Both the position numbers and the translations under genes were made by a program. A DNA stretch of 64,000 bases from Actinomycetota bacterium (GTDB lineage: Bacteria > Actinomycetota > Geothermincolia > Geothermincolales > RBG-13-55-18). The notes under the pieces were generated by a model, which was not told the origin of the DNA, ran no database searches, and worked only from the letters and a program-made list of their open reading frames with translations. Numbering within the stretch: the first letter of the stretch is position 1; the number at the start of each line of letters is the position of its first letter. This document shows, in pieces, positions 4,621-21,032 of the stretch. The DNA lies in NCBI GenBank assembly GCA_014360645.1, contig JACIXD010000015.1, positions 1-64,000 on the forward strand. Reading direction: 5' to 3'.

Positions 4621-5391
4621 TTACCCCGCCTCTGAGGTTACTGTCTCCTGCACACGTGCGGCTATCTCCCCTCCCGGAAACCAGCGCTGGGTCCTCAGGC
4701 ATATCCTCACCAGCAGGAGCATCACCGGCACCTCGATGAGCACCCCCACCACCGTGGCCAGGGCCGCGCCGGAGGCGATGCCGTAGAGCACGGCGGCGGT
4801 GGCGATGGCCACCTCGAAGTGATTGGAGGCCCCGATCATGGCGGAGGGGGCCGCGTCGCGGTAGTTCAACTTTAGCAGCCTGGCCAGCCCGTAGCCGATC
4901 CAGAAGATGAGCATGGTCTGGATGAAGAGAGGCACGGCGATATAGACGATGGACATGGGCTGCTCGATGATGAGCTCCCCCTTGAGGCTGAAGAGGATGA
5001 CCAGGGTGACCAGAAGAGCGATGATGGTGATGGGGGTGAGGTAGTGGATGAATTTCTCCCGGAACCACTCCATGCCCTTCTTCTTCAGAATCCATTTTCT
5101 GGAATAGTACCCGGCCACCAGGGGCAGGGCGACGTAGATGCCCACCGATAGCACGATGGTCAACCAGGGCACGGGCATGCTGTTGACCCCCAGCAGCCAG
5201 CCGCCCAGAGGGGCATAGAGCACCAGCATGGTGAGGGAGTTGATAGCCACCATGACCAGGGTGTGTCCGTCGTTCCCCCTGGCCAGGTACGACCACACCA
5301 GCATAATGGCCGTGCAGGGCGCGATGCCCAGGAGGATGCAGCCCGAGATGTAGGAGCGGTAGAGCTCGGGGCGCATCACCCCATCCACCAT
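4621..5391 (-). CDS. arsB: ACR3-type arsenite efflux permease, N-terminally truncated
   Basis: This matches the C-terminal two-thirds of ACR3 (bile-acid/arsenite transporter superfamily): [12 protein letters not shown] carries the conserved Cys region of helix 4, [17 protein letters not shown] follows, and [14 protein letters not shown] is the signature of a late helix. ACR3 proteins usually have about 340-370 residues and ten helices; this frame has 256 and opens at the equivalent of helix 4. An in-frame TGA lies about 50 bases upstream of the ATG, and the missing portion is not found before the next gene at 5527. The product is probably non-functional, or a deletion derivative. It sits in an arsenic gene set. 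Confidence 0.75.
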
Positions 5392-5526
5392 GATGCCGCC
5401 CGCCTGCGGGCGGTGCCCCGGCCTTCTTCAACCTGTGTTCTTTCCACCATCTCTCCTTTCCCGTTCCTTTCTCTTCTCACCCGCCTACGATAGGCCTTCA
5501 CACCTTTCCTACGACCGAAATGTCGC

Positions 5527-6588: not shown

Positions 6589-6802
6589 CTCAACCGCTTC
6601 CTGTCCGTGTATTCCGTCCCATAATGCCGCCGCCCATCCCATTCCGGCCTTTCTCTCCGGAAGCGACAAAACACTCTATCCTCAACGCGTGACCCCGAGT
6701 CCCTCTATTTACCGGGCTTGTCCGCAGGGCCTGCGGGCTGGATACAGGATGCGCTTTCCATCCGGCAGACTTCAGGCTCCGCTCTCTTCGCGCCCGGGAG
6801 GG

Positions 6803-7036
6803 TCAGGACTGCAGCCAGTTGCGGATCTCTTTCTTGTCCGGGACCTTGCCCTTGGAGACCACCTTGCCGTCGATCACCACGCCGGGGGTGATGAGGACGT
6901 TGTACTTCATGATCTCGCTCATCTCCGTGACCTCGTCCACCCGGGCATCCAGGCCTATCTCCTCCACGACCTCCCGGATGGCCTCCTTGGTGGCCTTACA
7001 CTTTTTGCATCCCGGCCCCAGTACCTTGATCTCCAT
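6803..7036 (-). CDS. Small redox-active disulfide protein (TM0996/MTH895 thioredoxin family)
   Basis: A 77-residue thioredoxin-fold protein: MEIKVLGPGCKKCKATKEA places the CKKC redox pair at residues 10-13, and VLITPGVVIDGKVVSKGKVP has the cis-Pro of the fold. Length and layout match the small glutaredoxin-like disulfide proteins found next to DUF318 permeases and arsenic genes. The ATG at 7036 is preceded by GGAGGTGAG at good spacing, which rules out a 38-residue upstream extension. It probably supplies reducing power to a neighbour, for example arsenate reductase or the permease; that is inferred from context. Confidence 0.85.
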   Translation of the reverse strand: MEIKVLGPGCKKCKATKEAIREVVEEIGLDARVDEVTEMSEIMKYNVLITPGVVIDGKVVSKGKVPDKKEIRNWLQS

Positions 7037-7223
7037 TCCGCTCACCTCCGTCATTCCTCCGTTATCCCGATATCCGACTTGCGCGTTCGAATTACACCCG
7101 CTACCGCATGTGTCCATACCGCGCTCAACGGGTCCTTTCCCGGCCGCCACGTCCCGTCATCCTGTCCCGCTGCGCGTCACGGCGTTTCCGCATATCCCCA
7201 TCTCTCACCCCCGCGCCTCATCC

Positions 7224-7748
7224 TCAAAGCCCCAGCTCGCGCAGCTTCTCCAGCTTCTCTCCGGCTCCCTCCTCGAGCAGGGGAGAGCAGTCCTCCGCGC
7301 ACCTCTCGCCCTCCACGAGCGAGGCCGCGAAGGCCATGCACGAGGGCAGGCCGCACTTCCCGCAGTTGGTGCGAGGCAGTTGCTTGAGGACGTCCAGGAG
7401 TTTGGGCGGGACCCTGGTGGTGTGGTCCGGGGTTATCTCCTCCCTGCGCTCCCATATCTCGTTCAGGCGTTCCACCGCCTTGGCGGCCACCCTTTCCGCA
7501 TGGGCGCGGTCCTTGAGGTTGTTGATGCTCAGGGTGTTATCGCGCAGGGCGTACTTGTGCGCCTCCTCTCTCCACACCAGGGTGGGTATCTTGGGGTCAT
7601 AGAACCCCTTCTTCACCTCGGCGTTGACGAAGGGCATCAGGGGCCCCAGATCGGCGTCTGTCTTCACCCTCGCCACCCAGATCGGCGATCCCGGGTCGCA
7701 GGGGGGCGAGAACATCTCCAGCTCGTAGTGGTTTATGAGCATCTCCAT
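7224..7748 (-). CDS. Fe-S cluster domain protein (FeS/ACS-gamma-like motif)
   Basis: A 174-residue protein ending in a Fes domain: CGKCGLPSCMAFAASL, then GERCAEDCSPL, at about residues 129-160. It gives the four-Cys pattern CxxCxxxxC...C that holds a [4Fe-4S] cluster in corrinoid Fe-S proteins and related small proteins. The first 120 residues have no recognised domain (FSPPCDPGSPIW, then VNAEVKKGFYDPKIPTLVW). Similar proteins of anaerobes lie near arsenic permeases and redox thioredoxins, which matches this neighbourhood, but the role is unknown. GTG at 7751 and ATG at 7748 are adjacent start options; GGAAG lies just upstream. Confidence 0.75.
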   Translation of the reverse strand: MEMLINHYELEMFSPPCDPGSPIWVARVKTDADLGPLMPFVNAEVKKGFYDPKIPTLVWREEAHKYALRDNTLSINNLKDRAHAERVAAKAVERLNEIWERREEITPDHTTRVPPKLLDVLKQLPRTNCGKCGLPSCMAFAASLVEGERCAEDCSPLLEEGAGEKLEKLRELGL

Positions 7749-7853
7749 CACCTGCTTCCGTCCGTTTCCTATTCCGCTGATGCCTCCGCTGATGTCCGTG
7801 CGCGTTCCGATTCCGCATGCGGCCGGATTGCGGCCGTCCGTCCCGCGCCGGCG

Positions 7854-8210
7854 TCAAGCGCTTTTTGTCCCATGTCCGGGGCTGACCCCATGATGGCCCA
7901 GGTAGCGCAGGAAGACCCCGGTCAGGGCATCCAGCTTCTCCTCCACCACCCGGTAGTAAGAGGACGTCCCCTCCCTGCGGGCCTCGAGGATACCCGCTTC
8001 CCTCAGCACGCTCAGGTGGTGGGAGGCGAGCTGCTGGGAGATCTTCAACTCCCTTTCCACCTCGCAAACGCATCTCTCCCCTTTCAGAAGCAAGCAGATG
8101 ATACGCAGGCGGTTGGGGTCGGATATGACCTTGAGGCCTTCCGCCAGCTCCAGGATGGCCGGGTCTTCCACACAGCTCAACTTCCTGCTCATCATCTCCC
8201 CCTGAGACAT
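7854..8210 (-). CDS. arsR: ArsR-family transcriptional repressor
   Basis: A 118-residue winged-helix regulator. The helix-turn-helix is CEVERELKISQQLASHHLSVLREAGIL, and ERCVCEVER carries the CVC metalloid-binding pair found in ArsR helix 3. The C-terminal wing reads RREGTSSYYRV. It would repress the divergent arsC side and its own gene until As(III) binds. Two start choices exist: ATG at 8210, or ATG at 8192-8195 just after a GGGGGAG sequence. A perfect dyad at 8228-8245 lies directly upstream. A longer frame reaching 8372 would run through that operator and is rejected. Confidence 0.88.
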   Translation of the reverse strand: MSQGEMMSRKLSCVEDPAILELAEGLKVISDPNRLRIICLLLKGERCVCEVERELKISQQLASHHLSVLREAGILEARREGTSSYYRVVEEKLDALTGVFLRYLGHHGVSPGHGTKSA

Positions 8211-8227
8211 TAACCAATGCTCATATT

Positions 8228-8245
8228 TACAAATTATTATTTGTA
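8228..8245. promoter_or_regulatory. Probable ArsR operator in the arsR/arsC intergenic region
   Basis: A perfect inverted repeat TACAAAT-TATT-ATTTGTA (7-base arms, 4-base spacer) in an AT-rich island of a GC-rich genome, 18 bases upstream of the arsR start and between arsR and the divergent genes. The size and symmetry fit SmtB/ArsR operators. A weaker half-similar element, ACAATTTGT, lies at 8261-8269. Confidence 0.7.
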
Positions 8246-8365
8246 TATTAGCACACCGGCACAATTTGTCAAAGGCGGATATCAACCCTTTCGCTCCCTG
8301 GAGCGTTCTTGATATCGGTGGTAGCATCATGATATTCGTTACCTGCATCTGAGAAGGGATCCGAA

Positions 8366-8587
8366 ATGGCAAGGATGGTAGCCCACCTCGATGACGAGGA
8401 GTATATCTGGCTGAAAAGGATGATGACCGACCAGGATAGAGAAGAGGCCCCGGAGATCATCAATAATTTCTTAAAGCCGCTGGTGAAGGAGGCGGAAAGG
8501 ACATCCGGCCCGTTGAGGGCCTTCGATCCGGGAAGGCCGCTGGGCAGATCGGCGCCCCACGCCGGCATGTCGCCGATTCCATGGTGA
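8366..8587 (+). CDS. Small hypothetical protein divergent from arsR
   Basis: A 73-residue frame beginning MARMVAHLDDEEYIWLKRMM, followed by a charged helical stretch (DREEAPEIINNFLKPLVKEAE) and a Gly/Pro-rich tail. The amino-acid composition looks protein-like, unlike the Arg/Pro-rich shadow frames around it. GAGAAGGG lies ahead of the ATG at a spacing of about 7. It ends 19 bases before arsC, suggesting one transcript from the ArsR-controlled region. No family is recognised. It may be a real ars-operon protein or a chance frame. Confidence 0.45.
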   Translation: MARMVAHLDDEEYIWLKRMMTDQDREEAPEIINNFLKPLVKEAERTSGPLRAFDPGRPLGRSAPHAGMSPIPW

Positions 8588-8606
8588 AAGCGAGGTCTGT
8601 GATCGG

Positions 8607-9008
8607 ATGAGCGAGAAGAAGGTGCTCTTCGTATGCGGCGAGAACGCCGCCCGCAGCCAAATGGCCGAGGCGCTTTTCAACCGCCTCGCTCGGGAATGGC
8701 GTGCCGAGAGCGCGGGCACCCATCCGGGGGGAGAGGTGAACCCCCTGGCCGTCCAGGCCCTGGCCGAGGAGGGCTTGGACATCTCCGCAAACGTACCCAA
8801 GCTTCTCGACCTCGGACGCCTGGACGAATTCGACCGCATCATCTCCTTCGGGTGCATCGTGAAGAGCGTGTTCCCGGCGCGCGACCGCCTGGAGGAATGG
8901 CCGCTGCCCGACCCCGGACGGGGGGACATCGAGATGATGCGCAAGACGCGGGACGAGATCGTGCGCCTGGTCTCGGCTCTGGTCGAGAAGCTGGAAGGTG
9001 ATTCCTGA
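8607..9008 (+). CDS. arsC: Arsenate reductase, low-molecular-weight phosphatase fold
   Basis: A 133-residue protein of the thioredoxin-coupled ArsC class. VLFVCGENAARSQMAEALF carries the CX5R phosphatase loop (Cys10, Arg16), and WPLPDP supplies the general-acid Asp. Classical ArsC uses a Cys triad (10, 82, 89 in the Staphylococcus/Bacillus enzymes). Here Cys83 is present (FGCIVKSVFP), but the following position that should hold the third Cys is Ser or Phe, so the disulfide relay must differ. The nearby CxxC thioredoxin at 6803 may be the reductant. The 3' end of the gene is duplicated downstream. Confidence 0.85.
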   Translation: MSEKKVLFVCGENAARSQMAEALFNRLAREWRAESAGTHPGGEVNPLAVQALAEEGLDISANVPKLLDLGRLDEFDRIISFGCIVKSVFPARDRLEEWPLPDPGRGDIEMMRKTRDEIVRLVSALVEKLEGDS

Positions 9009-9185
9009 GGGGCGAACGCCGCCTGGAGAAACCGCCGCTGCCCGACCCCGGACGGGGGGACATCGAGATGATGCGCAAGACGCGGGACGAGATCGTGCGC
9101 CTGGTCTCGGCTCTGGTCGAGGAGCTGGAAGGTGATTCCTGAGGGGCGAACGCCGCCTGGAGAAACCGCCGCTGCCCGACCCCGG
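8901..9185. repeat. 134-bp tandem duplication of the arsC 3' end
   Basis: The sequence beginning CCGCTGCCCGACCCCGG at 8901, which encodes the last 36 or so codons of arsC plus 26 bases of downstream DNA, recurs at 9035 nearly identically (GAGAAGCTG becomes GAGGAGCTG), and a third copy starts at 9169 and fades after 17 bases. The period is 134 bases, not a multiple of three, and copy 2 lies wholly downstream of the arsC stop. Weaker similarity extends about 16 bases upstream of 8901. Confidence 0.93.
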
Positions 9186-9527
9186 CATGGGAGGCATCGA
9201 GGAAACGGCCCTACCGCCACGAAGGAATCCGCCTCCATGGCCTTGAGATCGAAGGCCTACGTCCTTCCGCTTCTTTCCCGCACCGCTTCGTTTCCGTTTC
9301 CCCACGTCGCCCGCGGCGGGGTCCACTCGGGATGCGCAGCTCAAGATCATTTCGTTCCTTTAGTTTCCCCGAGTAGCCGGCGGCGGGGTCTTTGCGGATG
9401 CGCAGAGCAAGAATATTTCATTCTTGCCTATTGTCATTAATGTAATATTCTTACAAAGATATCCTTTTCACTTCGCCCTCAGGAAGGGGGTGGCTGCCTT
9501 GTGCGATCACCATGAGGTCGGATCCGG
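9186..9527. other. Non-coding region upstream of the padR gene
   Basis: No gene seen. Two diverged copies of a roughly 50-base segment (GCGGCGGGGTC... GGATGCGCAG...) occur near 9311-9360 and 9378-9425. An AT-rich patch at 9412-9462 probably holds the padR promoter and contains the TGTAA dyad listed separately. Confidence 0.5.
9441..9455. promoter_or_regulatory. Candidate PadR operator
   Basis: A perfect inverted repeat TGTAA-TATTC-TTACA lies in the only AT-rich stretch before padR, about 70 bases upstream of its start. PadR-type regulators usually bind such short AT-rich dyads and repress their own operons. The assignment is by position and symmetry only. Confidence 0.5.
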
Positions 9528-9917
9528 GTGTTGCTGCTCGAGCGGCGGCGCGGGGGGAGCCCGAGCGGGCGGTCGGCCTTCCGCTTCGGCGGCAATATTT
9601 CCCGGCACTTCATCCTTCCCGCCATCCTCTTCCTGCTCGACGAGGAGCCGCGCCACGGTTACGCGCTCATGCAGCGGCCTTCCGAGCTCGGCATAACGGA
9701 TGCCGGGGTTAGCCCTGCCACGGCGTACCGCATCCTCTCCAGGCTGGAGGAGGAGGGGCTGGCCGTGCACGAGCACGCCGACGACGGCCAAGGCCCCACC
9801 CGCAAGGTGTACTCGCTCACCGACACGGGGAGGGAGGCCCTCGCAGACTGGAGGTCTCACATCCAGAGGACCCGGGAACTCCTGGACCGGTTCACCCGGT
9901 GGTCCGCGCATGGCTAG
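9528..9917 (+). CDS. PadR-family transcriptional regulator
   Basis: A 129-residue regulator. LPAILFLLDEEPRHGYALMQ is the classic PadR N-terminal helix pair. SPATAYRILSRLEEEGLAV is the recognition helix region, and GPTRKVYSLTDTGREALADW is the beta-wing and following helix, which leads into a dimerisation helix (about 90-125). The start is a GTG with GAGG about ten bases upstream. Its stop codon (TAG) is overlapped by the ATG of the next frame (ATGGCTAG), so it was translationally coupled to the ABC-2 permease downstream, probably as its repressor. No ATPase gene for that transporter is present. Confidence 0.85.
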   Translation: MLLLERRRGGSPSGRSAFRFGGNISRHFILPAILFLLDEEPRHGYALMQRPSELGITDAGVSPATAYRILSRLEEEGLAVHEHADDGQGPTRKVYSLTDTGREALADWRSHIQRTRELLDRFTRWSAHG

Positions 9918-10520
9918 GCAACCCGCGGCCGGGCGGCATTTCACCACGGTCCTCTCCCTCCCGTGCCGCGTGCGGGCGCGCCGCGCGCGGGCATGCCCTT
10001 CAAGAGGACGGCCAGGACCTTCAGCCGCTGCCTCACCGCCCCCAAATCCCTCACCTGGATGGTCTTCGGCAAAACCCTGGCGGGGTTCTTCCTCGGGGTG
10101 GCGGTCTCGGTGGGCTCGCTGCTGGTAGGGGTCATAGGATACGGCACCTCCGCCTCGTCGCCCGCCCTGCTCGTCCTGTCCCTGCTCGCGTGCGGGATGT
10201 GCTTCTCCTGCCTCGGGATCCTGGCGGGGTCCATGCCCAGCGAAGCACCGGGCAACTTCATGACCGTGCTCAACTTCGTGTGCCCGCCCCTGCTCTTGAT
10301 GAGCGTCATCTTCATGCCCCCTGGCGGAGATGCACGCCTGTGGGCGCGCGGCCTGGTGGCGATATCCCCCCTCAGCTATGCTCACGACCTCCTTCGCCGG
10401 AGCACGGGGCTCGCGGCGTTCCTCTCCTGGTGGCTCGACCTGCCGGTGCTGCTCCTCTACGCAGCCACCTGCTTCTCCCTCGCCGCCTGGATCCTCAACC
10501 CCTCCCGTCTCCGCGCATGA
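9910..10520 (+). pseudogene. ABC-2 type transporter permease, 5' portion lost
   Basis: The C-terminal half of an ABC-2 permease is intact from about 9990: a cytosolic arm (SRCLTAPKSLTWMVFGKTLA) followed by five to six hydrophobic helices (FLGVAVSVGSLLVGVIG, LLVLSLLACGMCFSCLGILA, FVCPPLLLMSVIFMPPGG, ISPLSYAHDLLRR). The proper start appears to be the ATG at 9910 overlapping the padR stop, but that frame reads only a short Arg-rich peptide and is out of phase with the permease, and the N-terminal helices are missing. The gene is therefore best called a deletion or frameshift pseudogene; a short product from a start near 9963-9993 cannot be excluded. Confidence 0.65.
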
Positions 10521-10639
10521 TCCGCGGCGGGCGGGATCGGCTCACGGGGCACCGTCATGAATATGGTAAATATTGTCATATGAACGGGCGCTTTCGCCGT
10601 ACGCCGCCCGCCTACAGGTCTGGTGAGAAGGCATGGAGG

Positions 10640-11050
10640 TCAGGCGTCGAACACCCTGCAGACCGTCCTCCAGGGGCAGCGGGTCTCGCAGAAGGCGAAG
10701 GGCGCCCGCTCCTCGATAAGGGCCAGCCACTCCCTTACCACCATGGCCGTCCCGTACGATACGCCCAAGCCTTCCAGTATCCTGGCGTCCCACCTCCTGA
10801 CCTTCTCCTCGTCACCGGCGGGACTCTCGCAACGCCCGTCCTTGAGATCGGGGCAGTGGGGGCACAGGCGGTCCGGGCCCTCGACGAGCACGACGACCGT
10901 GTCGCGCTCCGGCCGCGTCAGCTCCTCGATCTCTTGCACGGCACGGGCGAACTCCTCGTTCCTTACCACCAGTTCCAGGGGCAGGAACCTGTCGCAGAGC
11001 AGATGGTGAGGCCGCAACCGCAGCGGCTCCTGTCCCTCAGCGACGTTCAT
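10640..11050 (-). CDS. DUF1284 family protein, probable Fe-S protein
   Basis: A 136-residue protein opening with LRLRPHHLLCDRF, the hallmark of DUF1284. It has eight Cys residues grouped as C...CPHC...C...CETRCPWRTVC, consistent with a metal or Fe-S site. The middle (RPERDTVVVLVEGPDRLCPHC) is the usual DUF1284 core. Function is unknown in the family; it occurs mainly in anaerobes. Read alone on the minus strand, 95 bases downstream of the MBL hydrolase gene and possibly cotranscribed with it. Confidence 0.8.
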   Translation of the reverse strand: MNVAEGQEPLRLRPHHLLCDRFLPLELVVRNEEFARAVQEIEELTRPERDTVVVLVEGPDRLCPHCPDLKDGRCESPAGDEEKVRRWDARILEGLGVSYGTAMVVREWLALIEERAPFAFCETRCPWRTVCRVFDA

Positions 11051-11145
11051 CCGCGGTCACCTCCTCGCTCTTCACCCTGTGTCCGGCAGGGAAGCCCTCG
11101 CGGCTACATGACGTGTTCCCTGCCGCTCAGGCCCAAACCATACCA

Positions 11146-12006
11146 TCATTCAAGGTCGTAGTCATCCGGGATGACCTTCATGCGGATGAGCTCGGGATCA
11201 TGCCCGGGAATGACGATGTCCGCCATCATGTCCAGCTTTGCCAGCGAGCGCATGATGTCCCCGGGGTTAAGCACCGAGGGGCCGAAATAGCCGCCGTAAC
11301 GGGATCCCCAGACGCGTGCGATGGTCTCCTGGACCTCCGGGTCCTCGAGGTCTACCTTCTGGCCTGCCACGCCGCCCAGGCCGACGATCTCCGCGAACTT
11401 GGCGGGAAAGCGCTTGGCGAGTCCCGCGTACATGTAGGCGGCATCTCCGAAGATGACCGCCTTTCCGCGCGAGGTGTTCACCGCGACGGCCTGATGTCCG
11501 GCGGTATGTCCGGCGGCAAGGATGAGCTCGATGCCGTCCCGCAGCTTGAAATCGCCGTTCACGAGCTTGAACTTGGGGACGAGGTCTATCCAATCCTGGG
11601 GATAACAACCCACCGCCTGGTAGCCCATGGGGAAATAAGACTCCAGCATCTCTTTTTCCTGCACGTAGAAGCTGGCGTTCTCGAAGAGATGCAGGTATCC
11701 CGTGTGGTCGTGGTGCAGGTGGGTGACGATCACGGTGTCGATGGCGAGGGGGTCGACGCCGTACTGCTTGAGCACGTTGGGCACCTCGAGCTCCGGGGTA
11801 CGCGGCTTGGGGCCGAATATCCACTTCGGCACATGGTCATGCACATAACTGCCGTCGACCACGATCTTCTCGCCGTCCTCCCCCTCGATGAGGAACATGA
11901 AGACGGGCAGGTCGGCGAAGTAGCCGGCGGCCAGCGGGCTCATGATGAGGCCCCAGTTCATGTGGAACCAGCCGGTGAGCATGGGTTTGATCCTGTACTC
12001 CTTCAC
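11146..12006 (-). CDS. MBL-fold metallohydrolase (N-acyl-lactonase-like)
   Basis: A 286-residue metallo-beta-lactamase-fold hydrolase. The zinc motif HLHHDHTG (HxHxDH, about residues 96-103) is intact, with a later His in AAGHTAGHQAV, the bridging Asp in VIFGDAAYMYAG, and a last His in VIPGHDPELI. The layout (VVDGSY early, FGPKPRTPELEV loop) resembles the AttM/AhlS lactonase group, but substrates of such proteins range from lactones to esters. The start ATG follows GAGAGCGGG. It stands with the DUF1284 gene in a sparsely coding area. Confidence 0.85.
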   Translation of the reverse strand: MKEYRIKPMLTGWFHMNWGLIMSPLAAGYFADLPVFMFLIEGEDGEKIVVDGSYVHDHVPKWIFGPKPRTPELEVPNVLKQYGVDPLAIDTVIVTHLHHDHTGYLHLFENASFYVQEKEMLESYFPMGYQAVGCYPQDWIDLVPKFKLVNGDFKLRDGIELILAAGHTAGHQAVAVNTSRGKAVIFGDAAYMYAGLAKRFPAKFAEIVGLGGVAGQKVDLEDPEVQETIARVWGSRYGGYFGPSVLNPGDIMRSLAKLDMMADIVIPGHDPELIRMKVIPDDYDLE

Positions 12007-12387
12007 GGTCCCGCTCTCCTTTCTCTCGCATGCCGAATTCCATTAGTTACCATGCCCGGCCGGGCAGGCATGGAAAACATCCTGCCTGCGGACAGGCGGG
12101 CGATCCGCGTCTCTCGACGGTTCTCTCCGCCTCCCCGGCAAAACAGGAGGCGCGAGGCCCTCGCGTTACGGGCACGTCCCGGGGTGGGTCAAACCATACG
12201 CCCCCCGTTCTGTGCGTTACACCGGCCCCCATCAGGCCAAAGCGGCAACAACGGCACTCCCTTCCCGCCTCCACCGGGCGTCATTCCGGAGAAGGTCGAG
12301 AGTTGGCGCCGTGTCCGCGAGGATCCCATTCACGGCCTTGAGCAAGTCTCCCCACGCCGGTCGCGCGTGCGTAAAGGGCACGGTTTC
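12007..12387. other. Intergenic region, nothing recognised
   Basis: About 380 bases between the MBL and flavodoxin genes. Open frames here are GC-rich shadows with Arg/Pro-rich products, and no ribosome binding site, dyad or RNA gene stands out. Confidence 0.5.
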
Positions 12388-12873
12388 TCATGGGTTCGCG
12401 AGCCTGGCGCTCAACGCGCGTCCGAACTCCAGGGCGCGCTCCACCTCGCTCTCGGGCAGGGTACCCCGGTCCTCGCCTTTCCCGGGAGGACTGTATCCCT
12501 CGATGGCGGCCTTGAACGGCGGCGCCAGCGCGACCAGGCCGCCCTTCTCCAGCAGCTCGTAAAGGACCTCGGAGGCCTGAATGAGCGGCTCATCGGTATT
12601 GACGGTACCGCCGGTGCTGAAAGTTGCGAAGGGCTTGCCCTTGAAATCCTTCCCGGTGAGCTTCCTGGCATAACGCTTGATCTTCGGCCAGGCGCCGGGC
12701 CACCTCGTCGCCGCCCCGATGACCACGAAGTCCAGCGACGGATCGGGCTTCCCCGCCTCCTCCACCGCCACCACCTCGACGTCATGCCCGGACTCCCTCA
12801 ATCCCTGCGCGATGGCCTCGGCGATCCTCTTGCAGCTTCCCCACCAGCTCTTGTAGACGACGATTCCCCTCAT
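12388..12873 (-). CDS. Flavodoxin-family protein
   Basis: A 161-residue flavodoxin-like fold protein: MRGIVVYKSWWGSCKRIAEAIAQGL holds the FMN phosphate loop, which departs from the usual T/S-x-T-G-x-T pattern (S-W-W-G-S-C). FVVIGAATRWPGAWPKIKRYARK covers the second flavin loop, and ATFSTGGTVNTDEPL covers the third. The ATG at 12873 has GAGAGGGG upstream; a 30-residue extension upstream is spurious. It is probably an electron carrier or a protoporphyrinogen-oxidase/NADPH-reductase-like protein; no partner gene is adjacent. Confidence 0.82.
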   Translation of the reverse strand: MRGIVVYKSWWGSCKRIAEAIAQGLRESGHDVEVVAVEEAGKPDPSLDFVVIGAATRWPGAWPKIKRYARKLTGKDFKGKPFATFSTGGTVNTDEPLIQASEVLYELLEKGGLVALAPPFKAAIEGYSPPGKGEDRGTLPESEVERALEFGRALSARLANP

Positions 12874-13361: not shown

Positions 13362-14759
13362 TTACGCCTCCCCGCCGGCTTCCGGGCGGCGGGTCGCCGG
13401 CCGCCAGGGGAGATAGAGCAGCTCCGCCTCGTCCAGGAGCAGGCCTACAAGCAGGTGGGCGCCCCAGCGGTTGATCTCCGCGGGGAAGGAAAAGGCCGCC
13501 CATCTCACCCTTCCCTTCTCCAGGGCAAGGTGGCAACACACCTCGCCCTCGGGTCCCTCGCAGCGTCCGAACCCCTCGCCCCTGCCGCCCCGCCCGCGCC
13601 TGGCCTCGAGGGGAGGCTCGGGAGGCCACGCGAGGACGCGGCACGCCACGCCCAGCGACTCCCCCACCTCGCGGACCTTCACCCTCACCAGGTCCCCGAA
13701 GACCCTTCCGCTTCCGCATACCGCCATCTCCCATCCCAGCAGGCCGTAGGCGCCCGCCTCCTCCGCCCGCGCATCCACCTCCATACCCAGCGCCCTGGCC
13801 AGGGGACCCGTGAGCGCCGCATCCCCCGCCAGGTCCCGCAATCCCGAGAGCCTCCTCTCCATCCAGCGCGGCGCCCGCAGGGCGAGGACCCGTCCTGACA
13901 ATTCCTCCCAGCGCCGCGAGATCTCTTGCAGCGATGCCGCCGCCTCCGCCGCGCCCGCGAGGGGGAAGTCCTCCCTAACGCCGCCGGGGACCACCCATCC
14001 CCTTCCCAGAGGATCGCCCAGCCACCCCGAGAGCGCCTCCTCTAGGCTTCCGCGCAGTCCGCGGCACGCCGCGGCGGTACGCCGCCTGCCCAGGCAGTCG
14101 GCCGCCATCTCCATCCACGCCAGGTGGCACTGCACCCGCGCCGTCTCGAGGAGCAGGGCGCGCAGGGCCGCGGCGGCGGGAGGCACCCTCAGCCCTCTCG
14201 CCTCCTCGCAGGCCAGCGCGCAGGAAAGGGCGCGGGCCGGACCTTCGTACTCGCCGCAGGCCTCCAACATGCGGCATGCCTCGGCGGCCCTGACCTCCCG
14301 CAGGATCGCGCCCGGATATTCCATGCGCGCCTCCAGCACCCCGAGCACGCGCCCGGCCGAGACCGCGAGGAGGTTTCCCTCCCAGTCCAGGAGCACCGAG
14401 GCCTCCACGTCCGGCGGCAGGTCCTCCGGCGCCGCGCGCGACATCCGCATCCAGCGCGAGGCGGCGGGGAAGTGGGGGGCGGCCTCGGGTAGCAGGCTCC
14501 GCCCTCCCTCCGCCTTCAGGTGCAGGGTCTCGCCGTCGCGGGGGTTATGGAAGTGCAGGGTGCCACCCACACCCGGCACGGGGCTGGCCATGAGCAGTCG
14601 CAGGCCCTGGGCGGCCAGGAACTCCATGCGGGCGGCGTGGTCTCCCCTCGTCTCCTCCAGCCATACGCGCCGCGTGGTCTCCAGGCGCGACCAGTCGACG
14701 CCCTCCCGGGGCAGGAAGCTCAACTGCGCGCGCTCATCTCCACCCCTGTCGCCGGCCAT
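13362..14759 (-). CDS. Hydrogenase large-subunit/NuoCD-like protein lacking NiFe cysteines
   Basis: A 465-residue protein with the architecture of HycE/HyfG-type subunits: a NuoC-like domain (about 1-120) joined to a NuoD/large-subunit-like domain. Recognisable landmarks are ALACEEARGLRVPPAAAALRALLLE for the helix after the proximal motif, VVPGGVREDF for the conserved PGGV turn, and LTGPLARALGMEVDAR for the TGP.aRasG..xDxR segment. Where NiFe enzymes have CGICS this protein has ACGEYEG, and the C-terminal DPCxxC is absent (EGEVCCHLA...AEINRWG). It therefore cannot bind NiFe in the usual way. The ATG at 14759 has GAGGTG upstream and lies just past the stop of the preceding gene, so the genes are coupled. 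It resembles Ehr (energy-converting hydrogenase-related) subunits. Confidence 0.72.
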   Translation of the reverse strand: MAGDRGGDERAQLSFLPREGVDWSRLETTRRVWLEETRGDHAARMEFLAAQGLRLLMASPVPGVGGTLHFHNPRDGETLHLKAEGGRSLLPEAAPHFPAASRWMRMSRAAPEDLPPDVEASVLLDWEGNLLAVSAGRVLGVLEARMEYPGAILREVRAAEACRMLEACGEYEGPARALSCALACEEARGLRVPPAAAALRALLLETARVQCHLAWMEMAADCLGRRRTAAACRGLRGSLEEALSGWLGDPLGRGWVVPGGVREDFPLAGAAEAAASLQEISRRWEELSGRVLALRAPRWMERRLSGLRDLAGDAALTGPLARALGMEVDARAEEAGAYGLLGWEMAVCGSGRVFGDLVRVKVREVGESLGVACRVLAWPPEPPLEARRGRGGRGEGFGRCEGPEGEVCCHLALEKGRVRWAAFSFPAEINRWGAHLLVGLLLDEAELLYLPWRPATRRPEAGGEA

Positions 14760-14767
14760 CCTCCACC

Positions 14768-16381
14768 TCACCTCAAGGCCAGATAGATCATGATCGCCGA
14801 CCAGCCTGCGTACAGAAAGAGGTTTCCAGCGGCGAGGGCCGCGCGCTTCCCGCCCCCCGGCAACCCCTCCCGGCGGAAAGCGCGGCCGCCCGCGAAAAGG
14901 GGCAGCGCGCGCCCGCATGAAGTCCGCACCGGAATCTCCCGGGTCTTCCCCCCGCGCGACCACAGCGCCATCACCGTCGCCGCCGGGACCGCCAGCAGCA
15001 GGACCGAGGCGCCGAGGCCTGCCCATCCCGGCACGGGCACCTCCAGGGGCAGGCCGTATTCGCGCATGAGGAGGTCGGTGAAGGCGCCGGGGAAAAGGCC
15101 CACCGCCACGCAAGCCGCGGCCAGACCGCACGCCCCCAGCCACATCTCCCCATCCCCGCACTTCTCGTCGGGGGGAGCGAGCAAGGAGGCCGAACCCATC
15201 ACCCAGGCCTGCGCCAGCAGGAGAGGGATGCAGGCGATGAAGAAGACCCCCCTCCATCCCGCCATGGCTCCGGCCAGGGCGGAGAAGGCCAACCACAGCC
15301 AGGCGAAGCCGGCCAGAGGAGGCACGCCCAGGAGGGAAGCTCCCCCCAGCACCCCGGGCCATCCCCCTCCCCTGCGCATTTCTCTCCCCAGCTCCGCCAG
15401 GGCCACGGCGGGAAGACCCGCCCACAGCCCCACTCGCATGGCCGCCAGGGCCGCCTGCCCCCCGGGGGCGGCGACCAGCGCCAGCGCCGCCCCCAGGCCG
15501 GAGCAGAGCAAACCCGTCACCTCCCAGCCCTCGCGGGCGCGCATCAGCTCCCGCGAGACCTCGAGGGCGGAGGCGGCGGCCGTCCCCAGGCATATCCACG
15601 TCCAGACCCCGCCCCAGGTGAAGAGGAGCCGCGCCACCGCGAAGAGGAGAAAGGCGCCGGTGGTGATATGCACGGCGAGTACGTGCACCAGAAGCAGGTC
15701 CCTGCCGCCGCGCGAGACCCCCGGCATCCAGCGGTGCATGGGAATAATTCCCAGCCGCAACAGCGCCGCCGCAAGCATCAGCGCGCACGAGGCGGCCCAG
15801 GGTCCCTCCGGTGGCAGGGGAGCGGGGGGTAGCATCAGTCCTCGCGAGGGGTCCGCCAGGTAGAACAGGAGGACTCCCAGCGCCAGGCAGAGGTCGGAAA
15901 GCGCCAGGGGGAGGATAAAAGGTAGCACGCGCCCCGCCGCGCTGCCGCGCAGGACCGCGGCGGCGATGAGGCACCAAGTGGCCAGGGCACACATCCCGGT
16001 GACGAGGAAGAGGTGGTCGCCCATGGCCGCCGCGAGGACCGCGGCGAGGGAAAAGCAGGCAAACGCCGAGGAGGCGTTCTCCTTTTTCCCGGCCCGCTCT
16101 CCTCCCCGCGAGGCCAGCACGAAGAAGGGCGAAAGGGCGGCGAGGGGGAGCACGAAGGCCATCTTCTCCGGGGTGAGCTCCAGGCGCCACAGCGCGAAGG
16201 TCTCGGGACCCACGTGGCGGTCCCAGGCACGGTATGCCAGCACCGCCGCCGCCGGCAGGGAGAGCACGCACCAGGCCGAGGCCACCCTGCGCAGGGCGCG
16301 GGCCGGCACGGCGGCGAGGTAGAGGATGCCCGCGACCGCGGCCGCCAGGGGCATGGCCGCGAGCAGGTGGACGGCTCTCAA
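14768..16381 (-). CDS. NuoL/M/N-HyfB-like membrane subunit, divergent
   Basis: A 537-residue, roughly 14-helix protein related to the antiporter-like subunits of complex I and Hyf/Hyc complexes. Family landmarks are visible: LRLGIIPMHRWMPG (usually K.a.fPfH.WLPdA) and GGASLLGVPPLAGF (usually lS..GlPPlaGF.gK). The functional ionisable residues seem absent by eye. The helix-7 Lys position is Arg, the Lys after GVPPLAGF is Leu, and no Glu aligns in the helix around HLFLVTGMCALATW. If alignment confirms this, the subunit may not pump protons. It is the middle gene of a three-gene minus-strand cluster, nine bases upstream of the NuoCD-like gene. Confidence 0.72.
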   Translation of the reverse strand: MRAVHLLAAMPLAAAVAGILYLAAVPARALRRVASAWCVLSLPAAAVLAYRAWDRHVGPETFALWRLELTPEKMAFVLPLAALSPFFVLASRGGERAGKKENASSAFACFSLAAVLAAAMGDHLFLVTGMCALATWCLIAAAVLRGSAAGRVLPFILPLALSDLCLALGVLLFYLADPSRGLMLPPAPLPPEGPWAASCALMLAAALLRLGIIPMHRWMPGVSRGGRDLLLVHVLAVHITTGAFLLFAVARLLFTWGGVWTWICLGTAAASALEVSRELMRAREGWEVTGLLCSGLGAALALVAAPGGQAALAAMRVGLWAGLPAVALAELGREMRRGGGWPGVLGGASLLGVPPLAGFAWLWLAFSALAGAMAGWRGVFFIACIPLLLAQAWVMGSASLLAPPDEKCGDGEMWLGACGLAAACVAVGLFPGAFTDLLMREYGLPLEVPVPGWAGLGASVLLLAVPAATVMALWSRGGKTREIPVRTSCGRALPLFAGGRAFRREGLPGGGKRAALAAGNLFLYAGWSAIMIYLALR

Positions 16382-16608
16382 GCCGCGACCTCCATTCCCT
16401 CATTCAGCATCTGATGCGTGTCTCCATGACCATGCCTTCGTTTTCCGGCCCTGAAGTCAGGGGCGGTCCCCCGCTTTTCATCATCCGGCAGGGATGCCGA
16501 AACCCGACTTCACGATCCCAACCCACCGGAACAACTCCGTACGGGCCACCGCGCCGAAGGGCCTCTCTCTCCCCGTACCCGGCCCCTCGTCGCCGCCCGG
16601 TGCATCGC

Positions 16609-17493
16609 TCAACCTCCAAGCACCGCGGCCGCCATCGCCAGGGCCAGGGAAAGCGCCGCGAGGGCGGGAGCCGCCAGGAGAGCCCGGCGCCGGAAGACGG
16701 CGTTCCTGCCCTCCAGCCAGGCGCGTCCTCCCGTGGCCGCCAGCGCCATGCCCGATGCCGAAGCCCCCCACGCGAGCGCCCCTCCCGGGCCTTTCCAGGG
16801 ATAGCCGAGGCAGACCAGGACGAAAAGCAACAGGGTCACCGCCCTCTCGGCGCCCTCCGCCAGAGCGGTCGCGGCCGCAACCCCGGATCCCCACCGTTCC
16901 TCTCCCCTCCCGTATGCGGGACGTCCCAGGAGGAAGAAGAACAGCGCCGCCGCCGCGCACGCCTGGGAGGAGAAGATGAGCGCGGAGCCCGCGCCTTTCC
17001 AGTAACGGAAAGCGCCAAACGCCCCCTCCGCGATGAGACCCTCGAGCTCCGGCGCGAACGCCCCCGGGTAACGCATGCTCACGCCGACGGTGGCACATCC
17101 CAACGCGAAAAGGCGCGCCAGGGAGGCGCGGAATCGCAATGGGACCCGCGCCGCGCGCTCTCCCTCTCCGGCCTCCGGGAGCGCGAGGGGCAGCAGTCCC
17201 GGCACCGCGACGAGCAGGGCGAGCGAAAGAAGGTCCCCCTCCACCCATACCAGGAGGACCCCGGCCAGGCCCAGGGCTGCCGGCGGCAGGAGAACGGCCA
17301 GCGCTTCTCCCGGAGAGAGGGGCGGGGAGGGAGCGGCGGCTTTCAGGACGTAACCCCGGGACCCGCCGCCGCCGGCCAGGCGGAACAGTCCCTCTTCCAG
17401 AAAGAGGAACAGCTCTCCGCAGGCGGCCATGAAGAGCAGTCCCGGGAAGAAGAGGACCTTGAGCAGATCCGCGGCCAATCGCATGCGCATCAC
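16609..17493 (-). CDS. NuoH/HyfC-like membrane subunit, divergent
   Basis: A 294-residue hydrophobic protein that opens with LLKVLFFPGLLFMAACGELFLFLEEGLF, in the style of HyfC/EchB/MbhM N-termini (llfpgllf...). It continues with PPAALGLAGVLLVWVEGDLLSLALLVAVPGL, comparable with the family Gdlll..yLLalp segment, then a membrane segment after FRYWKGAGSALIFSSQ and a late EGAERAVTLLLFVLVCLGYPW. Similarity is by pattern rather than by exact motif. The start lies among clustered GTG/ATG codons at 17484-17493. It is the first gene of the hydrogenase-like cluster. No small subunit (NuoB-like) or ferredoxin subunit (NuoI-like) lies beside it; upstream is a divergent DNA glycosylase. Confidence 0.6.
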   Translation of the reverse strand: MMRMRLAADLLKVLFFPGLLFMAACGELFLFLEEGLFRLAGGGGSRGYVLKAAAPSPPLSPGEALAVLLPPAALGLAGVLLVWVEGDLLSLALLVAVPGLLPLALPEAGEGERAARVPLRFRASLARLFALGCATVGVSMRYPGAFAPELEGLIAEGAFGAFRYWKGAGSALIFSSQACAAAALFFFLLGRPAYGRGEERWGSGVAAATALAEGAERAVTLLLFVLVCLGYPWKGPGGALAWGASASGMALAATGGRAWLEGRNAVFRRRALLAAPALAALSLALAMAAAVLGG

Positions 17494-17624: not shown

Positions 17625-17637
17625 TATAATCGATGCA
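17625..17637 (+). promoter_or_regulatory. Leaderless-type promoter of the DNA glycosylase gene
   Basis: TATAAT (17625-17630) is followed by six bases and then the ATG at 17637, so transcription should begin at or next to the start codon. No Shine-Dalgarno sequence precedes the gene. No good -35 hexamer was found. The same spacing occurs before two other genes in the window. Confidence 0.6.
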
Positions 17638-18536
17638 TGAGGATAACCTGTAAGGGTCCGTACGATTTCCGCCTCACCTGGGGGCTTTTCTCCGCTCATG
17701 CCGCCGGCAACGCCACCCGGCGCGGCTCTCTGGCCATGTGGTGGGACGGGACGCCCACCCTCATCTATCTGCGACAGACCGGGGAGGAGCCCCCGAGACT
17801 GGAGCTCATCGCCGATCCCATGCCGGCACGGCCGCTCGAGTTCCAGAAAAAGGTAAGGGAGATGCTCTTTGCCGACCTGGAACTGCAGCCCTTCTACCGC
17901 CGCGCGCGCCGCGACCGGTCGCTGCGCCCCGTGGTCAACGCGCTGGTGGGCCTGAAGCCGGTGCGCCCGCCGGACGTGTTCCAGATGGTGGTGATCGCCC
18001 TCAGCGAGCAGCAGGTCTCCATGGCCGCCGCGCACCGTGTACGCGAACGCCTCCTCGCCGCATGCGGGACCAGGGCGGGCCGCCTCCTGGCCTTCCCGCG
18101 CGCCGAGGACGTAGCCGCGCTAGGCCCCGAGGGACTGCGCGCCTGCGGGTTCTCCGCGCGCAAGGCGTCCTGCCTCGCCGCCCTTGCGGAGATGTTCGCC
18201 TCCGGAGACATGGACGTCTCTTCCTGGGAGGAGATGGATGACGAGACGCTCGCCTCCCGCCTGCGCGGCTACCCGGGCATCGGGGAATGGACGGCGGAAT
18301 ACATCCTGCTGCGCGGGCTGGGCCGCCTGGACGCGCTGCCCGCCTCGGACCTCGGCGTGCGCCGCGCCGTGGGACGCTGCCTGGCCGAGGGTGAGGAACT
18401 GAGCGCGGGCGAGGTGCGGGAGCTGCTCGAGCCCTGGCGTCCATGGCGGGGCCTGCTCGCTTTCTACCTCCTCGCCCATCAGCGGCTCATGCGGAAGGAG
18501 CTGGACCAGGCGAAGGGGCTGGACCAGGCGCAGTGA
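17637..18536 (+). CDS. DNA-3-methyladenine glycosylase/OGG-like HhH-GPD protein
   Basis: A 299-residue base-excision repair glycosylase of the AlkA/OGG fold. After an N-terminal beta domain (about 1-100), the HhH-GPD core contains VFQMVVIALSEQQVSMAAA, the helix-hairpin-helix LRGYPGIGEWTAEYILLR (about 222-239), and the catalytic Asp in DALPASDLGVRRAV. No Lys of the bifunctional OGG type is evident at the hairpin, so it is probably a monofunctional alkylbase glycosylase. The last residues (LDQAKGLDQAQ) and the stop fall inside a duplicated copy of the neighbouring gene's 3' end, so its C-terminus has probably been altered by that duplication. Confidence 0.85.
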   Translation: MRITCKGPYDFRLTWGLFSAHAAGNATRRGSLAMWWDGTPTLIYLRQTGEEPPRLELIADPMPARPLEFQKKVREMLFADLELQPFYRRARRDRSLRPVVNALVGLKPVRPPDVFQMVVIALSEQQVSMAAAHRVRERLLAACGTRAGRLLAFPRAEDVAALGPEGLRACGFSARKASCLAALAEMFASGDMDVSSWEEMDDETLASRLRGYPGIGEWTAEYILLRGLGRLDALPASDLGVRRAVGRCLAEGEELSAGEVRELLEPWRPWRGLLAFYLLAHQRLMRKELDQAKGLDQAQ

Positions 18537-18866
18537 CCGTCCTCCTGCTCCGCCCGCAGGTAGCAGAAACCCTCGCCCCGCAGGTCTCCGTCCACGAGGT
18601 CGAAGCCGACCTCCGCCGCTCCCGCGCCGCTCCAGGCCACGGAATATCCCCGTTCGTCACGGCACAGCAGCTCCACACCCCTCCCATCAGCGGCAGATCC
18701 AGATGGGGCTGGACCAGGCGCAGTGACCGTCCTCCTGCTCCGCCCGCAGGTAGTAGAAACCCTCGCCCCGCAGGTCTCCGTCCACGAGGTCGAAGCCGAC
18801 CTCCGCCGCTCCCGCGCCGCTCCAGGCCACGGAATATCCCCGCTCGTCGTGGCGCAGCAGCTCCAC
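18515..18866. repeat. Direct duplication of the 3' end of the PHP-domain gene
   Basis: Two about 162-base copies, 18515-18676 and 18705-18866, offset by 190 bases and differing at only a few positions. The right copy is the real 3' end of the minus-strand gene at 18687-21032; the left copy lies downstream of its stop and encodes the same 50 or so residues with a different tail. The left copy overlaps the last codons and stop of the plus-strand glycosylase gene. Confidence 0.93.
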
Positions 18867-21032
18867 CGAGCGCAGCCGGGAGGTGCCCAGGACGCGGCCC
18901 TGCAGGCGCGGACTGCCGGAGCAGAAATATTCCGTGCCCATGGGGAGGCCGTCCGCGAAAAGCTCCAGGACCATGCGCGCGCCCGTGGTGCCGTAGACCC
19001 TGCGGTTCCAGAGCGCCCTCCACAGGGACTCGGGCGTGAGCTCGTCGGCCCAGATGGCGGTGAGGCCGCGGGGATAGATATCGATGGGATGATAGCGCTC
19101 GTCCACGGCGTAGTCGTGGCGGTCGCTGCCGGCGATGATGCCCAGGCGCAGGCCGGAGGCCAGCGCCTCCTGCACGTAGTTCCCGAACCCCGGCCGGCTG
19201 CGGTCGTCCCGCAGGAAGCGCGGGAACCATCCCCGGGGAGCGCCGTGGGTTATGGGAAAGGGACCGTCGTAGCGCTCGGAGCTGCCGTGCATGCTGTAGA
19301 TCTCCACCAGTCGTTGCTGTTCGTTCTCCGGGCCCCACCAGGTATAGGCCTCCGGCACCTTCATCCTCAGGAACTTCAGCCAGTTGAAGAGGGCCATGAA
19401 GATGCGCCGCCAGGCGGTGTGGTGGGGGACCACGATGGCGTCGCGCTCGCGCAGCAGCCCCTCCAGTCTAGCGGGCGTGTCGCTCTCGCCGTCCACCCAG
19501 CTGAAGAGGGGCGGGTCCGTTTCCTCCGGCGCGTAATAGATCCCCCGGTGCCCCCACCTGTGGTCGGACCACTCGTAGCCCAGGAAGGTCACGAACCTCC
19601 CAGGCTGGTTGTATTCTCTGCACAAACGCTTGACGAGCTCCCACTCCTCCTCCCTGCCCGAGGGCTCGAAGAGGTCCATGGTGTCGTGGGTGGTGATGGC
19701 CGCGAAGTCGAGGCCCAGCTCGTCACGGGCCTCTCGGTAGAAGGCCCCGGGCTCCAGGCATCCGTCGCACAGGGCGGTGTGCACGTGCAGGTCTCCCCAG
19801 TAGAGGCGCAGGTCGCCGCCCACGGGCACGGGATTGCTCTCCCCCGCCAGCCCTCCCGCGAGCGCGCCCACGCGGTAGACCCCGGGGCGGGTCATCCTGC
19901 ACGTCACCGCCGCCACCCCGCGGTCCTGGGGACGGAAACTCACCCGGTAAGGCGCTTCCATGCCCTCCACGGGGACGATCTGCGCCTCTCCCGTGAAGGT
20001 GGGGTCCACCTCCCCTTTTTCGTCCACGGCCCGTATGAGCAGCCTGGCCTCGCCGGCTTCGTCGCAGGCGGAGAGGACGGGCTCAAGGGCCACGGCCCTT
20101 CCGCCCACCGCCTCCAGGACGGGACACGCAGCGATGAGGCGGTAGATGCCCGTGGCCCTCTCGTCCACCTCCACCGCCACGTCCACGCGCGAGGGGTGCG
20201 CGGGGGAGGCCCACCCCGGGCTTCCGTGCCGCCGGTCTCCCAGCACGATCACGATCTCGTCGCCCTCGGCGAGGCGGCCGTCCCTGACCCGGATGCGAAT
20301 CTTCCTCAGCTCCAGATAGAGATAGAAGACGTCCAGGCGGTCCAGCTTCACCCCGCACCGGCGCAGGAACTCCCTGCCCAGGAAGCGCACCGCGCCGCGC
20401 AGGGGGAAATAGCCCTGCGGCACCATCTCCAGGCGGGCGTTCCCGGACGTCTTGAGCTCGCAGGAGTAATAATTTGGCAGGCGCGGGTGGCGGTTCTGCC
20501 TGGGCCCCCAGCCGTCGGCGTAGAGGAAGGTGGGCCGCAGGCCTTTTTCCCCGAAATCGACGAGGCGGCAGAAGGAGACCTTTATTCCCCCGTCCTCGGA
20601 TATCCCCCCGGGACCGCAGCGGAAACGCAGGGTGACGGTCTTCTTGCCCTCACCCGCCCGCACCATGGAGGGCTCGAGCCAGGCCTCGCCGGGCGCGGTC
20701 TCCCGCGAGGGCTCGGGCTTGCGTCCCGGGCGGAAGAACTCGGGATCGTACAGGTAATCCATCACCCCGAAGGCGACGGTCCCGGCCGCGGCGCCCGCCG
20801 CGGCCAGCGGAAGGGCGAGGGCGGCCTTAACGGCCCTGCGCAAGGCGGTTGCCCGGCGCTCTCCGTCCCCCGATGCGGCACTGTCCCCACGCCGCATCCG
20901 CCCGCGGCCCTCCGCCCTGCGCGTCGCGGACCCGCTCTTCTTACGCCGCACGGAAACGCGGGGAGATCCGCTCTGGACCGTTCGTGCTCCGTCCGCACCG
21001 CCCGAAGGGAACCTCTTCTTTCTCGTCCTCAT
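18687..21032 (-). CDS. Large PHP-domain/DUF3604-like metal-dependent protein
   Basis: A 781-residue protein. Residues about 1-90 are basic, with a Tat-like or membrane-anchor stretch (RRATALRRAVKAALALPLAAAGAAAG). Residues 110-430 are beta-rich and unassigned. From about 435 a PHP-type metal site begins (LYWGDLHVHTALCDG), with AAITTHDTMD, FLGYEWSDHRWGHRGIYY, AIVVPHHTAWR and LGIIAGSDRHDYA supplying further His/Asp ligands. This order matches DUF3604 (PHP-related) proteins, whose substrates are unknown. Start ATG follows GGAGAGAGAG; a downstream ATG at 20897 just before the hydrophobic stretch is an alternative. Its 3' end is duplicated beyond its stop. Confidence 0.8.
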   Translation of the reverse strand: MRTRKKRFPSGGADGARTVQSGSPRVSVRRKKSGSATRRAEGRGRMRRGDSAASGDGERRATALRRAVKAALALPLAAAGAAAGTVAFGVMDYLYDPEFFRPGRKPEPSRETAPGEAWLEPSMVRAGEGKKTVTLRFRCGPGGISEDGGIKVSFCRLVDFGEKGLRPTFLYADGWGPRQNRHPRLPNYYSCELKTSGNARLEMVPQGYFPLRGAVRFLGREFLRRCGVKLDRLDVFYLYLELRKIRIRVRDGRLAEGDEIVIVLGDRRHGSPGWASPAHPSRVDVAVEVDERATGIYRLIAACPVLEAVGGRAVALEPVLSACDEAGEARLLIRAVDEKGEVDPTFTGEAQIVPVEGMEAPYRVSFRPQDRGVAAVTCRMTRPGVYRVGALAGGLAGESNPVPVGGDLRLYWGDLHVHTALCDGCLEPGAFYREARDELGLDFAAITTHDTMDLFEPSGREEEWELVKRLCREYNQPGRFVTFLGYEWSDHRWGHRGIYYAPEETDPPLFSWVDGESDTPARLEGLLRERDAIVVPHHTAWRRIFMALFNWLKFLRMKVPEAYTWWGPENEQQRLVEIYSMHGSSERYDGPFPITHGAPRGWFPRFLRDDRSRPGFGNYVQEALASGLRLGIIAGSDRHDYAVDERYHPIDIYPRGLTAIWADELTPESLWRALWNRRVYGTTGARMVLELFADGLPMGTEYFCSGSPRLQGRVLGTSRLRSVELLRHDERGYSVAWSGAGAAEVGFDLVDGDLRGEGFYYLRAEQEDGHCAWSSPIWICR

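Follow-up and report, generated by a model that had tools for sequence, protein, structure and literature searches.

Three adjacent minus-strand genes in the genome of a hot-spring actinobacterium probably encode a small non-redox membrane assembly, which descends from a group 4 [NiFe] hydrogenase or energy-converting hydrogenase-related (Ehr) complex, has lost the redox machinery together with most of the proton path, and is kept by selection. The genes, here named H, L and D and arranged in the order H-L-D, occupy positions 13362-17493 of the window, the whole stretch of 64,000 nucleotides (nt) that was analysed; it lies on contig 15 (JACIXD010000015.1) of a 3.38-Mb, 98% complete metagenome-assembled genome (MAG) of the class Geothermincolia; the named genomes closest to it are MAGs of actinobacteria, Candidatus Solincola daggyaiensis among them. 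The trio belongs to a stepwise-reduced branch of the Ehr complexes that is apparently undescribed. The comparisons cover 15 genomes of the family, 396 genomes of the phylum searched with an H profile, and eight complete copies of the trio, a sampling based on MAGs.

By alignment, none of the four cysteines that ligate the NiFe site (C1-C4) is present in D (0/4 in 8/8 complete copies), and both features of group 4 [NiFe] hydrogenases, CxxC near the N-terminus and DPCxxC near the C-terminus, are absent. A preliminary description of this DNA had reported the loss of both cysteine pairs from the window copy and had read ACGEYEG as standing in place of CGICS. The loss holds for all eight copies and the motif is indeed replaced, but CGIC aligns onto GEYE, and the cysteine of ACGEYEG is neither conserved nor a displaced ligand; no cysteine pair was found at shifted positions. 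Set against group 4 hydrogenases from the phylum (L055, L057, L058), every one of the eight D proteins has also lost the canopy Arg of EAPRG, the canopy Asp of DPCxxC and the His of the beta1-beta2 loop (GPxHP); the structural GG, GP..R and D.R motifs are retained. In formate hydrogenlyase (FHL), the canopy residues Arg478/Asp529 and the beta1-beta2 loop are conserved in hydrogenases and largely so in complex I (PMC9474812). What D carries instead of the hydrogenase canopy segment GxGRxEAPRGExxHY is its most conserved stretch, which holds 25 of its 82 invariant columns and contains GxGGRGEGFGRCEGPEGEVCCHLALEKG. The Cys-Cys-His (CCH) of this stretch (Table 1) was not seen in the hydrogenase and Ehr proteins compared, nor in those of f4, a different family within the class, which is described below. 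Metal binding or thiol chemistry at the CCH is the most likely local activity.

That D is a large subunit of this superfamily follows from several kinds of match. It hit the Pfam and NCBIfam profiles Complex1_49kDa (9e-10) and NuoD (1.2e-17), and a profile of eight family members had HycE (2.9e-21), MbhL (8.6e-21) and MbsL (1.1e-20) as its best solved structures. An AlphaFold2 (AF2) model, read at the level of the fold only given its mean predicted local distance difference test (pLDDT) score of 58.8, superposed on HycE (7z0s_E) with Z 21.0 and 3.3 Å over 252 residues, and the Foldseek alignment of D with HycE covered the whole chain. The N-terminus, FPAASRWxELLYG, resembles the NuoC pattern AnWxERexxD when read by eye from alignments, with no profile match, and D, like HycE, probably combines a C and a D part in one fused protein.

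Neither H nor L as a single protein gave anything usable in Pfam or NCBIfam or a phmmer match in the PDB, and the H profile found chance matches only in the PDB. The L profile matched MbhH (6cfw_H) at 4e-4, some L members matched PF00361 at 2e-4, and L matched a NuoN model at 3e-4. For H, the top 50 structural matches of the AF2 model (pLDDT 57.2) were all chains of the NuoH superfamily, with HycD (7z0s_D) at Z 11.5 and 4.5 Å over 254 residues. Searched with the H profile, the 396 phylum genomes yielded no trio outside the family, and the single outside match was the first helix of a HyfC adjoining a [NiFe] large subunit with DPCFSC. The identification of the three subunits as NuoH/HycD-, NuoL/HycC- and HycE-like is secure, and profiles and structural matches bear out the preliminary assignment to NuoH/HyfC, NuoL-N/HyfB and HycE/HyfG types; the preliminary coordinates are also correct.

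The loss extends to the proton path in the membrane, which the preliminary description had not covered. All eight copies of H lack the quinone loop (QxRxGP / QPxxDxxKLxxKE) and the PFDIPEAExE segment with the acids of the E-channel; in HycD, Glu138 and Glu199/201/203 are required for in vivo H2 production (PMC9474812). In contrast to MrpD and MrpA of the Mrp antiporter and to HyfB, L has lost the Glu of transmembrane helix (TM) 5, the Lys of TM8, the His/Lys of TM10 and the Lys of TM12, and the TM7 Lys is replaced by Arg, in 8/8 copies. These equivalences rest on MAFFT and on the alignment to MbhH, since hhalign of the L alignment against local Mrp/HyfB proteins aligned the C-terminal 94 columns only; the TM5 column moves by one between alignments, with Glu in neither. 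An Asp in TM6 accompanies the Arg in TM7, and the pair occurs in 18/18 L proteins of the trio, f4, f5 and f6 versus 0/4 Mrp/HyfB references. The TM7 change alone would not amount to loss of function, because HycC has Leu at this position (PMC9474812); it is the sum of the changes that counts.

The NuoD models, as the best curated family matches of D, would suit a diverged fragment of complex I made of Nuo paralogues and not derived from a hydrogenase or Ehr complex. We regard this as highly improbable: the solved structures matched best by the D profile belong to HycE, MbhL and MbsL, the only outside match of the H profile is a group 4 HyfC, D apparently has the HycE-like N-terminal domain, and a NuoD or NuoH of complex I occurs in no family genome. 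The trio D is the only PF00346 match in the host, which has no other NuoD, and PF00146 (NuoH) was matched in 0/15 family genomes.

Electron transfer by the trio is unlikely, as it retains no known cofactor site and no Fe-S subunit is present. The complete loci have no gene for a small or ferredoxin subunit beside the trio, as the preliminary description had observed in the window (NuoI-type ferredoxins were not sought genome-wide), and no adjacent gene encodes an MbsJ-type small subunit with its three-Cys proximal cluster. The missing NuoB and ferredoxin subunits might nevertheless be encoded elsewhere and join H, L and D in trans, giving a redox-active Ehr complex, and in this respect the host genome does contain two NuoB-family (PF01058) proteins (C8:50716 and C2:81172), the f4 sister operon retains a NuoB between H and L, and a flavodoxin gene lies downstream of the trio in four loci. 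Both PF01058 proteins, however, belong to hydrogenase clusters of their own, one of them with a Tat-type leader and located by Rnf genes, and there is no orphan small subunit for the trio, because each sits with its own large subunit. Family genomes that lack the trio show the same two-protein pattern, and the residues of D and H that would receive electrons or protons are gone. We therefore judge such a complex in trans to be quite unlikely.

Of the two clusters, the first (C8:44001-60000, 6464-12261, plus strand; L059) encodes a group 1-type [NiFe] hydrogenase with CGVC and DPCLAC, whose small subunit has a Tat-like leader, and directly precedes RnfC- and RnfD-like genes. The second (C2:74001-88000; L060) contains a [NiFe]-like large subunit (5297-6616, minus strand) with RICGGDS for RxCGxC and a C-terminal PCIPC; a small subunit of its own (6710-7618) and a ferredoxin of 96 aa are encoded next to it. 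In this hydrogenase-like enzyme, too, one NiFe cysteine has apparently been lost. No hydrogenase genes occur in the Mrp cluster on contig 3.

Related complexes elsewhere in the class suggest how the trio may have arisen. In f4, a four-gene operon H-B-L-D (L073-L076, L086-L088) is followed by an adenine deaminase gene, and the H protein was found in 8/9 f4 genomes. Its B is a NuoB-type small subunit of ~140 aa with four cysteines, and its D keeps three of the four NiFe cysteines: CxxS takes the place of CxxC near the N-terminus, and a CxxC lies at the extreme C-terminus. This D has neither the NuoC-like domain nor the CCH and has lost the canopy Arg as in the trio. The f4 H has likewise lost the quinone loop, and the f4 L mostly keeps the TM5 Glu and the TM12 Lys. 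In f5 and f6, H and L alone, a membrane pair lacking a peripheral arm, occupy the equivalent position ahead of the same adenine deaminase gene as the f4 operon (L083, 8282-10939, minus strand; L084, 4280-6980, plus strand; L085); no match to the window D (P0003) was found in G112, G143 and G267, and no B beside H-L. The shared Asp-Arg pair, the common gene arrangement H-(B)-L-D and the absence of the canopy Arg point to one ancestor and stepwise loss, of B in the trio and of B and D in f5 and f6. A NuoB remnant in the H-L gaps of the trio was sought by tblastn with six NuoB-like proteins and gave no signal, the best E being 0.045 against a very small database. The trees built for H, L and D agree with stepwise loss from one ancestor and separate the trio and f4 from the comparators, but their long branches meet and three NuoD rows are mis-framed, and we therefore relied on the Asp-Arg pair and the gene order. 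The nearest canonical source seen is the f10 group 4 hydrogenase, whose HyfC has the same FPG(F/L)LF start.

The trio was present in nine of the 15 family genomes, spread over four genera, and every complete contig shows the order H-L-D. No complete copy is disrupted, and these copies give 24 intact frames, 32-72% identical to those of the window. An open frame proves little by itself where the DNA is GC-rich; the conservation of these 24 does, together with pairwise ratios of nonsynonymous to synonymous substitutions (dN/dS) of 0.23-0.51 in all three genes, with a third-position excess; dS is near saturation and the values are rough. The TAG noted in G008 is simply the normal stop codon; no relative has a premature stop. 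In several loci the trio shares its flanks, with a DNA glycosylase, a DUF3604 protein and DinB- and LexA-type genes on one side and a response regulator, DUF166 and ribonucleotide reductase on the other. The trio-less genomes G001 and G002 keep the flanking genes, with no trace of the trio at the same site. The trio has probably been kept vertically.

A relic in slow decay, its function lost and the complex drifting out of the lineage, could account for the way residues and subunits disappear step by step across the class, the moderate dN/dS and the absence of the trio from six of the 15 family genomes, which is clean where checked. The preliminary description had argued against simple decay, and the relatives uphold this: decay is rejected because they keep intact, diverged frames at these dN/dS values, and pseudogenes would not retain, at such divergence, 82 invariant D columns that include a new invariant motif. 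We hold a relic to be very unlikely; on these comparative grounds the trio is an old trait of the family, dispensable and under purifying selection, rather than a fragment in decay. As read from the alignments, selection preserves the fold, the membrane Asp-Arg pair and, in D, the CCH pocket.

In the non-redox assembly that we favour, H and L would form the membrane part, as HycD and HycC do in FHL, and D would cap it on the cytoplasmic side, sitting on H, as in FHL. No electrons would pass through the trio. The remodelled pocket of D (Cys-Cys-His and the neighbouring Arg, Glu and Pro) may bind a metal ion or carry reactive thiols, and the working element of the membrane part would be the retained Asp(TM6)-Arg(TM7) pair. 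Together the two could do a non-redox job as a membrane-coupled enzyme, transporter or sensor. More tentatively, the trio may represent an assembly of the complex I superfamily without electron transfer in which D has become a Cys-Cys-His site and the channel pair Glu(TM5)-Lys(TM7) has given way to Asp(TM6)-Arg(TM7). The Geothermincolia would then preserve, as H-B-L-D, H-L-D and H-L, the steps in which redox parts were shed from a membrane part that stayed functional.

Several points weigh against a non-redox assembly. On sequence grounds a small subunit encoded in trans is conceivable, and the membrane-bound sulfane sulfur reductase (MBS) has lost NiFe cysteines and is redox-active given its small subunit (PMC7684303). 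In FHL, HycC has no lysine in TM7 either (PMC9474812), and no single loss is therefore decisive. The residue equivalences in the membrane subunits come from alignments with very little sequence identity. Confidence in the AF2 models of D and H is low (pLDDT 58.8 and 57.2), several pairs have a dN/dS of 0.3-0.5, which is not particularly low, and the trio, being absent from six of the 15 family genomes, is dispensable.

A non-redox use of a NuoL-family membrane subunit has a precedent in the carbon uptake system DAB2/MpsAB: DAB2 joins such a subunit to a Cys2His zinc enzyme and is driven by the membrane potential (PMC13144422). By analogy, D might bind Zn through Cys408/Cys409/His410 and ion passage through H-L might drive a reaction, which would suit the invariant CCH with its acidic and Arg neighbours and the invariant Asp-Arg pair of L. 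Such a potential-driven enzyme is nonetheless unlikely here. The proton residues of NuoL are conserved and needed in DAB2 (PMC13144422) and are mostly lost in the trio, for which reason the trio is not assignable to the DAB2 class; adjacent cysteines are unusual ligands for one zinc; and the f5 and f6 relatives retain H-L without any D. The soluble partner in DAB2/MpsAB is moreover an unrelated DUF2309 carbonic anhydrase, and the system has no NuoH. D as a DUF2309 protein was ruled out by its profile matches, which make it a HycE homologue.

Among known systems, the Hyd-3 module of FHL (HycC-HycD-HycE-HycG-HycF) is the best profile and structure match, with one NuoH-like, one NuoL-like and one HycE-type subunit as in the trio, which differs in lacking HycG, HycF, the NiFe cysteines, the canopy Arg/Asp, the beta1-beta2 loop and the E-channel glutamates. 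Ehr complexes, which by the definition cited in PMC6349859 are group 4 relatives without NiFe ligands, share with it a group 4-type large subunit devoid of NiFe cysteines and membrane subunits of the NuoH and antiporter (NuoL/Mrp) types. Unlike these, the trio consists of three genes only, has no small (NuoB/EhrS type) or ferredoxin subunit beside it and has lost proton-path residues; it falls under Ehr by its large subunit but departs from it in having no small subunit, and the usual redox-coupled charge translocation is not expected of it. In MBS (MbsL/MbsM/MbsH), whose large subunit matched the D profile at ~1e-20, NiFe ligands are also lost, but two of the four cysteines are retained and the MbsJ Fe-S cluster is needed, neither of which applies to the trio; in complex I all four cysteines are gone (PMC7684303). 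Respiratory complex I differs from the trio in possessing the GPxHP loop, NuoB and the NuoH quinone loop QxRxGP...KE. On this comparison f4 and the trio are a loss series separate from that of MBS and complex I, the trio also dropping its Fe-S partner and the proton path. Beyond the single locus, the trio is part of a class-wide family with H-B-L-D and H-L versions. No description of a three-subunit Ehr complex, of the f4 H-B-L-D operon or of the trio in Geothermincolia was found in a search that covered little of the subscription literature and probably not the defining Ehr reviews.

It has long been asked how the complex I superfamily couples electron transfer to ion pumping, and here nature has apparently removed the redox half in steps and kept the membrane half under selection. 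The trio is related to complex I of mitochondria but probably has a task other than electron transfer, and with its relatives it offers a loss series for comparison with the route already known, which leads from hydrogenase via MBS to complex I. If expressible, H-L or H-L-D would show what a cofactor-free NuoH-NuoL module can do and which residues it needs. Automatic annotation would probably label these genes as NADH dehydrogenase subunits or not at all, and respiration would then be wrongly inferred.

Table 1 Positions of the trio genes and of their diagnostic motifs in the window.
Feature	Position	Strand	Description
H (P0001)	16609-17493	minus	NuoH/HycD/MbhM-like membrane anchor, 294 aa
H-L gap	16382-16608	minus	227 nt; position where the f4 sister operon has a NuoB-like gene
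L (P0002)	14768-16381	minus	NuoL/HycC/MbhH-like antiporter-type subunit, 537 aa
Asp163 codon of L (TM6)	15893-15895	minus	invariant in 18/18 trio, f4, f5 and f6 members
Arg209 codon of L	15755-15757	minus	replaces the TM7 channel lysine; invariant in 18/18
D (P0003)	13362-14759	minus	HycE/EhrL-like large subunit, 465 aa; probable NuoC-like N-terminal domain and NuoD/hydrogenase domain
ACGEYEGP	14238-14261	minus	replaces the N-terminal CGIC NiFe motif; ligand cysteine in 0/8 copies
D residues 389-444	13428-13595	minus	most conserved segment; replaces the canopy segment
Cys408-Cys409-His410 of D	13530-13538	minus	invariant in 8/8 trio copies

At the locus itself, L and D are separated by 8 nt, and the spacing between H and L varies from 4 to 398 nt across relatives. 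The start of D was placed at an ATG preceded by a purine-rich tract, the mechanical open reading frame extending further upstream. An HhH-GPD DNA glycosylase gene (17637-18536, plus strand) is divergent from the trio, and a tRNA-Val gene lies past its 3′ end on the opposite strand. Downstream of the trio and on the same strand is the flavodoxin gene (12388-12873, minus), which is also found near the trio in L037, L040 and L044. A large DUF3604/PHP-like protein (18687-20843, minus) is encoded beyond the glycosylase gene and is kept at the trio locus across the family, including in the genomes without the trio.

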